DNA from: Bacteroidia bacterium
GTDB taxonomy: Bacteria; Bacteroidota; Bacteroidia; J057
Reading direction: 5' to 3'
Assembly (NCBI GenBank): GCA_030430575.1
Contig: JAUIKF010000002.1
Span: 1 to 64,000, forward strand
DNA length: 64,000 nucleotides
Part shown: positions 29,308-33,416 of the stretch, in pieces
Numbering within the stretch: position 1 is the stretch's first letter
Layout of the letters: each line of letters opens with the position of its first letter
Translations under genes and position numbers: made by a program
The notes under the pieces: model-generated
Database searches by the model: none
What the model was told of the DNA's origin: nothing
The model's input: only the letters and a program-made list of their open reading frames with translations

Positions 29308-30797
29308 TGACCATCCAAAAAACGAAGCAGTTTTCATTCTTGAATTTGAGATTGAATTTGCGCTTGAACTTTATCCTAATTTCTTTTTTCCTCTCATGCT
29401 GGGCATCATCCTATGCCCAGCATGATCCGCTGGAGCAAGAAACTGACTCTGCTGTGCTAGCTAAGCTCGATTGGTGGCAAGACCAGAAGTTTGGGTTTAT
29501 GATGCACTGGGGGACCTATAGTCAGTGGGGTATCGTTGAGTCTTGGTCGCTATGTTCGGAAGATGTGCCTTGGTGCAAGCGGCATATCGCTGACTATTCG
29601 GAATACTGTCGCCAGTATAAGGCGCTAAAAACGACCTTTAATCCAACCCAATTTGATCCAGCGAAATGGGCAGAAGCCGCCGAATATGCGGGTATGAAGT
29701 ACGTGGTATTCACCACGAAGCATCATGATGGCTTTAGCATGTTTGACACCAAACAGACGGAATATGGGATTACAGACCCTAATTGTCCTTTTTCCACACA
29801 CCCTAAATCAAATATCACAAAAGAGGTATTTGACGCATTTAGGCAAAAGGGGTTTGGGACTGGCGTCTATTTCTCCAAAGCGGACTGGAACCATCCCGAC
29901 TACTGGGCGCCAGAGTGGGCACACCCAGATCGCAACGTGAATTACGATCCCGAGAAGTATCCTGAACGGTGGCAACGCTTCAAAGACTTTACCTATAACC
30001 AGATCGAGGAATTGATGACGGATTATGGAAAAGTCGACATCTTATGGTTAGATGGGGGCTGGGTAAGACCTGCCGGAAGTTTGACGGAGGAAACCAAGCC
30101 TTGGCTTGGCTGTAAAGGCTACATCCAGGATGTGGACATGCCGCGAATCGCTGCTATGGCGCGTAGCTATCAGCCAGGCATGTTGGTCGTAGACCGTACT
30201 GTTCATGGTCGTTATGAGAACTATCGGACGCCTGAGCAGCGCGTGCCTGCCAAGGCCCTGGACTATCCCTGGGAGACCTGCATGACCATGGCTAATTCCT
30301 GGTCATTTACACCCAATGACAACTATAAGTCTACCCACAAACTCCTGCATTTGCTGGTAGATATTGTGGCAAAAGGAGGAAATTTCTTGCTGAATGTAGG
30401 GCCTGACGCTAATGGGAACCTCGCGCCAGAAGCCTATGAACGCTTGCGTGAAATAGGGGATTGGATGAAAGTAAATGGCTCGGCGATTTATGGCTCACGG
30501 CCCATTGCGCCTTATAAAGAGGCCAATATCTGCTATACCCAGCTGAGGGACGGGACGGTGAATGCGCTGTATCTAGCTGATGAAGGAGAAACCCATCCCC
30601 CAGCCAAAATCATGCTTCACAGCATTTGTCCAGCGCCTGGGGCGACCGTTACTTTGCTCGGAAGTAATCAGAGATTGAAATGGGAAAAAGTCGGCAAAGG
30701 GGCACTGATCTATCTGCCAAAGAAGTTGCAAGAAACTCCGCCATGTCAGCATGTATGGACTATAAGGGTCTCTGAAAGCGAATTATTAATTGATTAG
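29307..30797 (+). CDS. Alpha-L-fucosidase, GH29
   Basis: The 496-residue product has a signal peptide ending SSYAQ (about 38) and a GH29 catalytic domain: WWQDQKFGFMMHWGTYSQWG near the start, KHHDGFSMF, and the catalytic nucleophile Asp249 in ILWLDGGW. It removes terminal alpha-L-fucose from glycans outside the cytoplasm. The first 22 residues before the hydrophobic core are odd: LNLRLNLRLNF is encoded by a hexanucleotide TTGARN array. Its ATG overlaps the peroxidase stop (TAATG). Confidence 0.92.
   Translation: MTIQKTKQFSFLNLRLNLRLNFILISFFLSCWASSYAQHDPLEQETDSAVLAKLDWWQDQKFGFMMHWGTYSQWGIVESWSLCSEDVPWCKRHIADYSEYCRQYKALKTTFNPTQFDPAKWAEAAEYAGMKYVVFTTKHHDGFSMFDTKQTEYGITDPNCPFSTHPKSNITKEVFDAFRQKGFGTGVYFSKADWNHPDYWAPEWAHPDRNVNYDPEKYPERWQRFKDFTYNQIEELMTDYGKVDILWLDGGWVRPAGSLTEETKPWLGCKGYIQDVDMPRIAAMARSYQPGMLVVDRTVHGRYENYRTPEQRVPAKALDYPWETCMTMANSWSFTPNDNYKSTHKLLHLLVDIVAKGGNFLLNVGPDANGNLAPEAYERLREIGDWMKVNGSAIYGSRPIAPYKEANICYTQLRDGTVNALYLADEGETHPPAKIMLHSICPAPGATVTLLGSNQRLKWEKVGKGALIYLPKKLQETPPCQHVWTIRVSESELLID
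29340..29369 (+). repeat. Hexanucleotide array (TTGARN) inside the fucosidase signal peptide
   Basis: Five consecutive six-base units (TTGAAT, TTGAGA, TTGAAT, TTGCGC, TTGAAC) encode alternating Leu and polar residues before the signal-peptide core. The same unit forms arrays at 20013 and 34637. Confidence 0.7.
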
Positions 30798-30806
30798 GCA
30801 TAGATA

Positions 30807-30838
30807 CACCACAGATGACACAGATTATCACAGATTTT
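30807..30838 (+). repeat. CACAGAT array, left arm flanking GxxExxY gene
   Basis: Three CACAGAT units start at 30810, 30819 and 30829 (9-10 base period). The outermost CACCACAGAT (30807-30816) is an exact inverted match to ATCTGTGGTG at 31234-31243. The start codon of the GxxExxY gene (30815) lies inside this array. Confidence 0.8.
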
Positions 30839-31210
30839 AGGCGTCTAAATGAAATTAGCTATAAAGTTATTGGAGGTGCTTATAAAGTCCATAGCGAGTT
30901 GGGACCAGGTTTGCTAGAATCTACTTATGAAGCTTGTTTAGCTTATGAATTAATACAAGCAGGATTAAAAATAGAGCAACAGAAGGCAATGCCAGTTATT
31001 TATCAAGGGGCAAAACTAGACGCTGGATATAGGATAGACCTTTTGGTTGAGAATAGTATTGTTTTGGAAATTAAATCTGCTGAATCAATTGCCCCTATTC
31101 ACAAAGCACAGCTAATGACTTATTTAAAGCTATCAGGTGTAAAACTAGGTTTACTACTAAACTTCAATGTTAAGGACATGAAGGCAGGTATAACGAGAAT
31201 CGTTATGTAA
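30815..31210 (+). CDS. GxxExxY family protein (PD-(D/E)xK-like)
   Basis: The 131-residue product carries the family signature G32-x-x-E35-x-x-Y38 in GPGLLESTYE and a PD-(D/E)xK-like core, Asp75 in YRIDLLV and E85-I-K87 in IVLEIKS. Length matches the family (TIGR04256-like, 120-140 residues), whose function is unknown; a nuclease fold is likely from the motif. The first eight codons lie in the CACAGAT array, a situation I recall for many family members. The stop is one to three bases before the right-hand inverted array. The gene is slightly more AT-rich than its neighbours and stands alone. Confidence 0.85.
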   Translation: MTQIITDFRRLNEISYKVIGGAYKVHSELGPGLLESTYEACLAYELIQAGLKIEQQKAMPVIYQGAKLDAGYRIDLLVENSIVLEIKSAESIAPIHKAQLMTYLKLSGVKLGLLLNFNVKDMKAGITRIVM

Positions 31211-31212
31211 AT

Positions 31213-31243
31213 AATCTGTGTTAATCTGAGGGAATCTGTGGTG
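31213..31243 (-). repeat. CACAGAT array, right arm (ATCTGTG on plus strand)
   Basis: ATCTGTG at 31214, ATCTGAG at 31224 and ATCTGTG at 31234 occur with an exact 10-base period, inverted relative to the left array. A further isolated ATCTGTA lies at about 31282. Confidence 0.8.
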
Positions 31244-31383
31244 ATATTTAAGGCCCAAATAGAATCCATATTTATCATGTAATCTGTAATGGTTTCAGGC
31301 TTTTTTGAAAGAAAGTTCCTTTAAAAAACTGAAAACCAGTATCTTATCATTCATTAATAATTTCCAACCAAACACCAATAATT

Positions 31384-31791
31384 ATGGGATTCCTATCATC
31401 CTTAAAAAACCTATTTGGCGGTGCCAAAGATCAAGCTGGCGCAGCTGTGGACAAGACCTCTGAGTTTGTAGACGAGTCGGTAGACACCATCAAAGAGCGA
31501 GGCGGCGCGTTTATCGACAAATCCAAAGAAGTCGCCACTGAGACGATGGAAAAAGGCAAAGAAGTAGCTGGGGAAATGATGGATAAAGCCGAAGATATGG
31601 CGGAAAAAGTCAAAGATGCAGCTGAAGACGCTTTTGACAAAGTAGAAGACTTTGTGGAAGATGCAGTAGATGCTGTGAAAGATAAAGCCGAAGCTTTATT
31701 TGGGGACGATGACGATGACGACGATGATGACGACGATGATGAAAAAAAGGCCGCTAGTCCAGCACCAGAAGCCGATGATACCACCGTATAA
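31384..31791 (+). CDS. Amphipathic repeat protein with poly-Asp tract
   Basis: The 135-residue product has no signal peptide. Residues about 12-105 form a long amphipathic helix with an irregular 11-residue-like periodicity of Ala, Lys, Asp/Glu and Val (KDQAGAAVDK, EKGKEVAGEMMDKAEDMAEKV), like YtxH/LEA/apolipoprotein-type proteins. Twelve consecutive Asp (about 108-119) follow, encoded by a GAC/GAT mix, then a Lys and Pro/Ala tail. The chain is strongly acidic. Such proteins often act in stress protection or at membrane surfaces; no enzymatic motif is seen. A strong terminator follows, so it is probably monocistronic. Confidence 0.75.
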   Translation: MGFLSSLKNLFGGAKDQAGAAVDKTSEFVDESVDTIKERGGAFIDKSKEVATETMEKGKEVAGEMMDKAEDMAEKVKDAAEDAFDKVEDFVEDAVDAVKDKAEALFGDDDDDDDDDDDDEKKAASPAPEADDTTV

Positions 31792-31897: not shown

Positions 31898-33313
31898 ATG
31901 AATACGACGACGGCACATACCCCCCACGAAGTAGGCACAGCGGAAATCCAAGAAGTTATCTCGCGCCAGCGTGCTTTTTTCCGAACAGGAACTACCCTGC
32001 CCGCAGCTTTTCGTCGCAAAAGCCTCAAGGCACTCAAAAAAGCACTAGAGGAAAATGAGCAGGCGTTTTACGATGCAATCTATGCTGACTTTAAAAAACC
32101 AGCAGTAGAAATGTATGCTCATGAGATGGGGATTGTATTTGGCGAAATAGATTTGATGCTCAAAAACCTGGATGAATGGATGCAGCCTAAGCGCGTTAAC
32201 GCGAGCTTACTCAATTTCCCTTCTACAGACTATATCTATTCAGAACCCTATGGCGTGAACCTGATTATCGCTCCATGGAACTACCCTATGCAGCTGACTT
32301 TTTCTCCATTGGTGGGCGCCATTGGAACGGGAAATACGGCTGTTATTAAACCTTCTGAGCTGACTCCTCATACCTCTGCCCTCACCCAAAAAATTGTCAA
32401 CGAGATATTTGATCCAGGGCATGTGCAAGTGATACAAGGAGGAGTTTCTACTTCTACAGCTTTACTCGCAGAAAAATGGGACCATATTTTCTTCACAGGG
32501 AGTGTACCCGTAGGACGTATTGTCATGCAAGCGGCTGCCAAGCACCTTACGCCTGTAACACTTGAGCTGGGGGGGAAAAGCCCCTGTATTGTAGATGAAA
32601 AAGTCGACCTCGACCTCGCTGCCAAGCGCATCGTTTGGGGGAAGTTTATCAATGCCGGTCAGACATGTGTTGCGCCAGACTATGTGCTAGCCCATGCGAA
32701 AATCAAAGATGAATTGATTGAGAAAATGGGCAAATGGGTACAGACCTTTTATGGAGAAAATATTCAAGAAAGCCCTGACTATCCGCGCATTGTGAATGAG
32801 CGTCACTTTGATCGAGTGAGTAAATACCTCGCAGATGGGGTCGTCGCTGTAGGGGGAAAAACGGACAAAGAAGATCGCTACATAGAACCCACGATATTAG
32901 ATAATGTAAGCTGGGATGACGGGGTGATGAAAGATGAAATATTTGGCCCTATTCTCCCAATCCTGACTTTCATTGACATAGATGAAGCCATCCACGCAAT
33001 CAATGATCGTCCCAAACCTTTGGCCCTTTATTTCTTTGGAAATAGAAGCCGGATCCAAGATCGTGTCTTGCGCGAAACATCCTCAGGTGGCGCCTGTATC
33101 AATGAGGTAGTGGCACATCTCGCCAACCATAACCTTCCGTTTGGTGGGGTGGGAAATAGCGGCATAGGTACCTATCATGGCAAGTACAGCTTCCAAGCCT
33201 TTTCTCATCAAAAATCTGTCAGCAAAAAAGGCACATGGTTAGATGTCCCATTACGCTATCCTCCTTACAAAGGAAAATTGGGCTGGATCAAGAAAGCATT
33301 TAAAGTCGGGTGA
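31898..33313 (+). CDS. Aldehyde dehydrogenase (fatty-aldehyde type)
   Basis: The 471-residue product has the ALDH fold with the catalytic Glu223 in ELGGKSP and nucleophile Cys257 in NAGQTCVAPDY. The PWNYPM and FTGS motifs bind NAD(P). The C-terminal LPFGGVGNSGIG and the shorter length fit class 3 / fatty-aldehyde dehydrogenases (ALDH3-like, YwdH). It oxidises long-chain or aromatic aldehydes to acids. Preceded by a terminator and followed by an AT-rich inverted repeat tract, so probably transcribed alone. Confidence 0.93.
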   Translation: MNTTTAHTPHEVGTAEIQEVISRQRAFFRTGTTLPAAFRRKSLKALKKALEENEQAFYDAIYADFKKPAVEMYAHEMGIVFGEIDLMLKNLDEWMQPKRVNASLLNFPSTDYIYSEPYGVNLIIAPWNYPMQLTFSPLVGAIGTGNTAVIKPSELTPHTSALTQKIVNEIFDPGHVQVIQGGVSTSTALLAEKWDHIFFTGSVPVGRIVMQAAAKHLTPVTLELGGKSPCIVDEKVDLDLAAKRIVWGKFINAGQTCVAPDYVLAHAKIKDELIEKMGKWVQTFYGENIQESPDYPRIVNERHFDRVSKYLADGVVAVGGKTDKEDRYIEPTILDNVSWDDGVMKDEIFGPILPILTFIDIDEAIHAINDRPKPLALYFFGNRSRIQDRVLRETSSGGACINEVVAHLANHNLPFGGVGNSGIGTYHGKYSFQAFSHQKSVSKKGTWLDVPLRYPPYKGKLGWIKKAFKVG

Positions 33314-33416
33314 AGAATTATTAATTGAGTGATTATTCATTATTGATTCAGTGATTATGAGTAAATAACCGTTGGGCCTGTTAATCAATCATTAATCAAT
33401 TTATCAATCAATAATC
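33314..33416. repeat. Facing AT-rich GATTRATT arrays
   Basis: The gap between the aldehyde dehydrogenase and the GH5 gene holds two tracts, ATTATTAATTGAGTGATTATT-like at 33314-33358 and its inverse TTAATCAATCATTAATCAATTT-like at 33381-33416, around a short unique core. They could pair into a long imperfect hairpin. No gene is seen. Confidence 0.55.

Follow-up and report, generated by a model that had tools for sequence, protein, structure and literature searches.

A GxxExxY gene encoding a predicted Cas4-like nuclease lies between inverted word arrays that recur as dispersed palindromes in its host genome

What does a small predicted nuclease gene have to do with the inverted repeat arrays that enclose it? 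The question is raised by a GxxExxY gene in the window, a 64,000-nucleotide stretch of a Bacteroidia bacterium genome (contig JAUIKF010000002.1, positions 1 to 64,000). A first-pass annotation of this DNA had described inverted CACAGAT arrays on either side of the gene, the right one with an exact 10-bp period, a start codon lying inside the left array and a stop codon touching the right one, and had proposed that gene and arrays form one unit whose protein may bind or cut its own repeats. All six repeat units and the perfect 10-bp pair at the outer ends were found again (Table 1). The 10-bp period holds for the right array, with steps of 10 and 10 bp, but not strictly for the left, with steps of 9 and then 10 bp; the left spacing is the geometry of one arm in the dispersed palindromes described below. 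A search for CACAGATNNNCACAGAT with up to two mismatches returned three matches in the window, all at this locus, with 0.38 expected, and none of 100 shuffled windows reached three. The first codons of the gene are array sequence: the ATG lies within the left array and is the sole in-frame ATG, GTG or TTG start upstream of the conserved domain. The right array starts 3 nt past the stop codon.

Table 1. Coordinates of the GxxExxY gene, its arms and its predicted active site in the window
Feature	Position	Strand	Details
Gene plus both arms	30807-31243		
Left arm	30807..30835	+	three CACAGAT units at 30810, 30819 and 30829; spacing 0/9/19
Outer perfect inverted repeat, left copy (CACCACAGAT)	30807..30816	+	perfect 10-bp pair
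GxxExxY gene	30815..31210	+	131 aa plus stop; TIGR04256 E 2.5e-45, PF13366 E 2.3e-43
Predicted active-site residues D75, E85-x-K87, Q99xxxY103	31037..31123	+	PD-(D/E)xK plus QxxxY motif
Right arm	31214..31243	-	inverted units at 31214, 31224 and 31234 (ATCTGTG, ATCTGAG, ATCTGTG); spacing 0/10/20
Outer perfect inverted repeat, right copy (ATCTGTGGTG)	31234..31243	-	perfect 10-bp pair

Other short stretches of the window also recur. Positions 29332-29383 and 33310-33349 have several further matches in the host genome and belong to other repeat families; positions 31705-31742 are a low-complexity GAC/GAT run that encodes aspartates in the next ORF and matches many genomes.

The protein exceeds the curated cut-offs of TIGR04256 (153.6 bits, cut-off 35) and PF13366 (PDDEXK_3; 147.7 bits, cut-off 22), the only families over cut-off for the gene between the arms. 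Across 51 aligned proteins G32, E35, Y38, D75, E85, K87 and Q99 are invariant and Y103 is nearly so; QxxxY is a motif associated with RecB/Cas4. A confident AlphaFold2 model (pLDDT 96.5) has a minimal PD-(D/E)xK fold. Its best structural match is the Cas4 protein SSO0001 (VIA Z 9.7, rmsd 3.2 over 98 residues), and no other chain reaches a Z of 8; Foldseek gives SSO0001 an E value of 1.7e-3 and nothing at E ≤0.001. The Cas4 profile PF01930 scores 17.1 bits, below its cut-off of 22.7, PADLOC Cas4 models match at E 4.6e-4 and weaker, and no sequence relative with a solved structure was found at E up to 1. The window protein is predicted, on the strength of this model, to be a Cas4-like PD-(D/E)xK protein with conserved catalytic residues. 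LAGLIDADG, HNH and GIY-YIG are homing endonuclease motif families, and none of them matched it. Phage origin was set aside because viral contigs yielded no confirmed relatives and a phage collection none. Relatives occur in eight plasmid records; the one from Bacteroides finegoldii (L409) carries radA and thrA and looks chromosomal.

Inverted arrays accompany the family at large. We scored 186 of 194 distinct genes (8 were dropped for a short flank or N), a set biased to close relatives of A1 and to high-scoring Bacteroidota members. The left-versus-right inverted flank score averages 21.5 for a gene's own flanks and 11.6 for swapped ones; it reaches at least 18 in 123/186 genes, as against 5.9% of swapped pairs, and the 63 genes below 18 include some without a clear array (for example L048, L061 and L118). 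Among 80 loci from many phyla, of which 5 were dropped for a short flank or N, the mean is 22.1 (n=75) versus 10.9 for 696 control ORFs of the same loci. The controls' 95th percentile (15) is reached by 58 of the 75 loci and their 99th (24) by 23, the controls themselves including high outliers up to 96.

The units point predominantly inward. At least two inward units lie in 132 of the 186 left flanks, with 38 for the opposite orientation, and in 143 right flanks, with 45 for the opposite orientation. The first-pass reading would have been undermined by an absence of arrays from most family members; instead, inward units stand on both sides of 115/186 genes and on at least one side of 160/186. 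Fewer than two CRCNRAK-type units on both sides were counted for 26 genes, several of which have other words and some no visible word. The median distance from stop codon to right array is 4 nt (quartiles 1 and 33.5, n=143), so the close abutment seen in the window is typical of the family. A start codon encoded by the array, correctly described for the window gene, is unusual elsewhere and was found in 7 of 118 genes with at least two left units and an in-frame ATG.

Words differ between genes (CACAGAT, CGCAAAG, CACGAAG, CAGGATT, CATATAAGG and others), and CACAGAT and CATATAAGG have a common geometry, each arm carrying its units at 0/9/19. The letters of the unit track the protein tree: over 148 genes the last letter of the unit, G or T, changes 6 times versus 21.1 times in shuffles. 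Single residues show strong raw associations with the word; a lysine, for example, occupies residue 85 of the aligned L038 fragment in 24/60 CGC-type genes versus 2/88 CAC-type genes. Among the results listed, co-variation of residue and unit was non-significant on independent pairs, too few of which differ. In Bacteroides fragilis, an uncultured Bacteroides and B. finegoldii (L095, L099 and L409) the gene follows radA, which is annotated in L409 and was recognised by eye in the remaining two. The genes downstream resemble each other in L095 and L099, but the words there differ, CACAGATT versus CGCAGATT. In Sphingomonas parapaucimobilis (L410, NZ_CP155749.1 482837-483265) a GxxExxY gene sits between fabD and fabG.

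The arrays are not confined to the gene. The host genome (G000; 8.16 Mb, 127 contigs) contains 35 matches to CACAGATNNNCACAGAT and 138 to CACRGATNNNCACRGAT, which describes CACRGAT pairs; the reversed patterns used as controls gave 0 in both cases. From these we extracted 44 distinct full palindromes, which are built like the arms around the window gene and consist of CACGGATTACACAGATTTNCACRGAT, a loop mostly of 11 nt (TAAAGAAGAAA) and an inverted arm. They contain 62 of the 95 distinct CACRGAT matches in the fetched stretches, the remaining 33 failing the full-palindrome criteria or sitting too near a stretch end. Of the palindromes 41/44 lie outside mechanically called ORFs, and their units are conserved and their spacers variable. 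The window gene occupies the loop position between two palindrome arms. That gene and arrays form one unit is well supported, and the unit extends to these dispersed cognate palindromes, which the first-pass annotation had missed.

On contig C105 of the same genome, both arms, the left one without its first unit, surround the last 46 of the 117 profile positions of the gene; by its sequence, this locus is an internal-deletion form of the gene-bearing element. CACAGAT-type copies of the gene in the host genome thus comprise one full and one deletion form. With so few gene copies per type, movement of the gene is less clear than movement of the palindromes. The start of C105 (L004 1-108) and the end of contig C15 (the end of L332) have in common at least 84 identical bases and a 16-mer, which directly abut an array in both contigs, that of the gene remnant in one and that of a palindrome in the other. 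To judge from its sequence, this common stretch may be one end of an insertion sequence with these arrays as its target.

A second GxxExxY gene of the host genome, on contig C28, is flanked by CATATAAGG-type units, a word without evident kinship to CACAGAT. Here CATATAAGGCATWTAAG gave 102 matches and its control 0, and the extraction yielded 18 full palindromes, both arms of which have the 0/9/19 spacing. This spacing was imposed in both extractions, having first been seen unconstrained for CACRGAT and by eye for CATATAAGG. Three PF01797 (Y1-transposase) matches, one with an internal stop, were found in the host genome; none of the three words occurs as arrays within their fetched flanks, and a Y1 transposase was rejected on these grounds as the partner of the palindromes.

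The dispersed words follow the matching gene from genome to genome. Across 22 genomes of the order we found 28 GxxExxY matches in 11 genomes. We read the flanks of 27 of the 28, many with differing inverted arrays (CACAGAT, CAGGATT, CGCAGATTT, CACAAAGG, CATATAAGG and others); words were assigned to genes by eye, and some of the word matches counted below are the genes' own flanks. The CATATAAGG type, with up to two mismatches, occurs 199 times in G000, 46 times in G007 and 27 times in G013, the three genomes in which a gene carries this word; none of the other 19 has more than 6. The CAGGATT type occurs 64 times in G013, 27 times in G015 and 13 times in G000, all with a matching gene; G016 (87% complete) and G020 (8 of the 9 matches on one contig) have 9 each with no gene found, and the others at most 2. 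CACRGAT, with 138 matches in the host genome where its gene is present, reaches at most 7 elsewhere. Even two species of one genus differ greatly, G000 and G013 having 138 versus 7 CACRGAT and 13 versus 64 CAGGATT matches. Each of the three tested words is thus numerous chiefly in genomes that have a GxxExxY gene flanked by it. Tandem CATATAAGG-type units were seen in G007 at C91:6878-7086 and C283:240-370, with 64-bp and 38-bp spacing.

A broader survey covered 296 Bacteroidota genomes, 152 with TIGR04256 (including 3 with sub-cut-off matches) and 144 without; the family is also present in many other phyla. Genomes with the gene have on average 9.6 (median 3.5) pairs of CRCARAK units at a distance of 10 bp and those without have 1.33, with control means of 0.61 and 0.69. 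At least 10 dispersed pairs were counted in 52/152 genomes with the gene and 0/144 without. When 4 matches per gene copy are subtracted for the gene's own flanks, 14 genomes keep at least 10; in at least one of them, G183, a single local tandem array makes up much of the count. In that genome, CACAGAT pairs lie in tandem about 47 bp apart at C30:42628-42926, near a GxxExxY gene at C30:43456-43809. Within the family f12 the mean is 15.5 with the gene (n=22) versus 0.43 without (n=7), and 9 of the 10 families having at least two genomes of each kind show the same direction. The exception, f25, has a mean of 0.8 with the gene (n=5) versus 1.36 without (n=59) and supplies 59 of the 144 gene-less genomes.

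Presence and absence of the element could be compared directly at a junction between map and a methyltransferase gene. We searched 199 genomes of one Flavobacterium-like genus and, from the junctions listed, picked 64 to cover all states: 24 (24 species) hold a type-A GxxExxY gene with arrays, 14 a second GxxExxY subfamily (type B) with CACGAATT/CACAGATT-type arrays, 19 no insert, and 7 remnants, other palindromes or another gene. Orthologous loci do vary, then, in whether they contain the element, and invariance, which would have weighed against the first-pass reading, was not what we found. The 19 junctions without an insert comprise 6 with a bare TAATG, in which stop and start codons overlap, and 13 with an array-less gap of 12-37 nt between aligned flanks; in filled loci the insert lies between stop and start. 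A duplicated A would fit the difference between the empty TAATG and the filled TAA...ATG, but the comparison is confounded because stop and start codons are themselves under selection. Target duplications, which the first-pass annotation had suggested looking for, were not definable in the loci compared, and neither were exact element ends. Empty sites, also suggested there, were found at the map junction and not for the window's own insertion: in G013, the single same-genus genome compared, the region is non-syntenic, the two long matches, one to the second gene upstream and one to the second gene downstream of the window gene, lying 119 kb apart and on opposite strands.

At the map junction the two arms of one element also match each other better on average than swapped arms do, with a score of 22.52 versus a swapped mean of 20.39 for 21 type-A elements (11/20000 permutations) and 28.14 versus 25.73 for 14 type-B elements (292/20000). 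This is weak evidence of arm co-evolution because shared ancestry of both arms can produce it. Solitary palindromes near map are present in some species and unalignable in others, and they are not counted here among the clean empty sites. In L308 and L309 (G378 and G357) another long palindrome (CCTGCAAGGTTTTCAAAACCTTGTAGG) replaces the insert beside a short, old left-array remnant; in L327 and L328 (G371 and G415) the left array is retained and is followed, instead of GxxExxY, by an ORF of 431-436 aa that starts with MKIKLQNIGIIEEA and is presumably ATPase-like.

A single model may account for these observations. The Cas4-like GxxExxY nuclease would read a private word of ~7-9 bp as double-stranded DNA; the word recurs every 8-11 bp in each of two inverted arms, between which the nuclease gene lies. 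Where a short spacer stands between two such arms instead of the gene, the result would be the dispersed, non-autonomous palindromes. By cutting or nicking cognate arms, the protein could cause rare copying or insertion of palindromes at intergenic sites in trans, while the gene-bearing form would serve as the source of enzyme and insert more rarely than the palindromes. What the data show is the association, its specificity and the variation in presence and absence; binding, cutting and transposition are what we infer, together with the role of this protein, and not of another enzyme, as the copier. A protein that acts on its own repeats would be in keeping with both the predicted nuclease fold and the co-occurrence of gene and word type. 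Y1-type transposases, the one family surveyed, are present in the host genome, and another enzyme could therefore move the palindromes. On balance we favour, with somewhat better than even confidence, the reading that gene and arrays are the coding member of a REPIN/RAYT-like repeat system, in which an unrelated nuclease acts on, and probably spreads, its own palindromes. A bolder proposal would make the GxxExxY family a new class of enzymes that mobilise elements: stand-alone Cas4-like nucleases that, with no classical transposase, spread their own palindromes by way of a private word present three or four times per arm. It seems to us evenly balanced between true and false.

Chief among the rivals are homing into palindromes already in place and a host role for a domesticated protein. 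In the former, palindromes that spread by other means would be the target sites of a free-standing, homing-type nuclease gene, which lodges at the loop and splits the arms. The loop position of the gene would be explained, as would the finding that, within one genus, two GxxExxY subfamilies occupy a single junction in different species; a stand-alone nuclease gene under purifying selection also fits. Homing alone leaves unexplained, however, why a word's palindromes are numerous chiefly in the company of the matching gene. Moreover, no orthologous pair of an intact and a gene-split palindrome was present among the loci read, and the empty site in six species is the bare TAATG with no palindrome. 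We consider homing rather unlikely.

Alternatively, the protein could be a domesticated DNA-binding protein and the palindromes regulatory or chromosome-organising sites that are mobile rarely or were so formerly. Selection on the gene is indeed strongly purifying: the median dN/dS of genes at the map junction is 0.056 for type A (22 of the 24 genes) and 0.074 for type B, after pairs with dS >1.5, <0.05 or saturated were dropped (146/231 for type A, 44/91 for type B). The gene, once in place, is therefore kept for its protein. Orthologues of the gene at a single locus in 24 species, palindromes that avoid ORFs almost entirely and the combination of conserved units with variable spacers would likewise suit a host function. 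It is at odds with the empty state of 19/64 junctions within a genus, with the great difference in copy number between two species of another genus (G000 and G013) and with the conservation of the predicted active site, and we regard it as unlikely.

The palindromes might instead act as RNA hairpins, that is, as terminators or mRNA ends copied along with a gene whose protein is incidental; their arms are largely complementary and intergenic. Pairing between arms argues otherwise. Across the 44 CACRGAT copies most variable positions pair at about the frequency expected from independence or below it, two exceed it slightly (0.84 vs 0.81 and 0.70 vs 0.63), and the 18 CATATAAGG copies show no excess over independence at variable positions. 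The lack of clear compensation between arms in either word type speaks for sites in duplex DNA rather than a hairpin. Together with the type-specific association with the gene, these counts make an RNA role very unlikely. Finally, a chance or passive placement of GxxExxY genes beside repeats of other origin, for which further repeat families, other transposases and the control ORFs that lie between strong inverted repeats could be cited, is highly improbable given the excess of own flanks over same-locus controls and swapped flanks, the inward orientation of the units, the closeness of array and stop codon and the co-occurrence across genomes.

In the literature searched, mostly by title and start of abstract, we found no description of these repeats with GxxExxY and no mention of TIGR04256; in one published passage, GxxExxY is a label for a gene adjoining a reverse transcriptase. 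With the present association, a large family of uncharacterised proteins, found in 152/296 Bacteroidota genomes, gains a role that can be tested, and dispersed palindromes with an 8-11-bp period, a wide class, gain a likely cause. Related genes with different words in other bacteria look like an unrecognised route by which tiny DNA elements spread. If the new-enzyme-class reading is true, many 'unexplained' bacterial intergenic repeats would share one cause, and the set would be large, given that roughly half of the sampled Bacteroidota genomes have the family and that it extends to many other phyla. If the protein only binds, the family would offer a natural series of matched protein and word pairs from which DNA recognition could be learned and re-aimed.

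How does the system compare with those already known? The model shares with Cas4/RecB-type PD-(D/E)xK nucleases (SSO0001, Pcal_0546, lambda exonuclease) its predicted fold, catalytic D and ExK, and gives weak Cas4 profile matches; unlike Cas4, the protein has ~120 aa, stays below the Cas4 profile cut-off and is encoded here beside repeats. Homing endonuclease genes likewise place a single nuclease gene between the halves of a palindromic site, but the GxxExxY site is dispersed in tens to >100 copies and covaries with gene type. MITEs and their parent insertion sequences offer a further parallel: the palindromes are short, non-autonomous copies with the same two ends as the longer gene-bearing form, C105 has a form with an internal deletion, and presence or absence varies at orthologous sites (the map-methyltransferase locus). 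In contrast to MITE parents, the sole ORF between the arms encodes a PD-(D/E)xK protein and not a DDE, HUH or serine/tyrosine recombinase, and the element ends are multi-unit arrays instead of one terminal repeat, with no target duplication established.

The closest resemblance is to REPIN/RAYT systems. In PMC3116915, REPINs are described as dispersed, intergenic pairs of inverted repeats whose cognate gene is flanked by the same repeats; a genome can hold several repeat 'flavours', each beside its own gene, which is present in few copies, and RAYTs are proposed to spread REPINs in trans. In these respects the GxxExxY system is similar: its repeats both flank the partner gene and are dispersed, and several words coexist with few gene copies. 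It departs from REPIN/RAYT in its enzyme, PD-(D/E)xK and Cas4-like in place of an HUH/Y1 tyrosine transposase, and in its repeats, which are arrays of 7-9 bp words at 8-11 bp spacing. REPINs are by definition hairpin-forming REP doublets, whereas GxxExxY arms lack compensatory pairing. Because the enzyme and hairpin features fail, we do not file the GxxExxY system under REPIN/RAYT. If its protein moves the palindromes, it would be a PD-(D/E)xK counterpart of the RAYT, through which DNA spreads without a known transposase.
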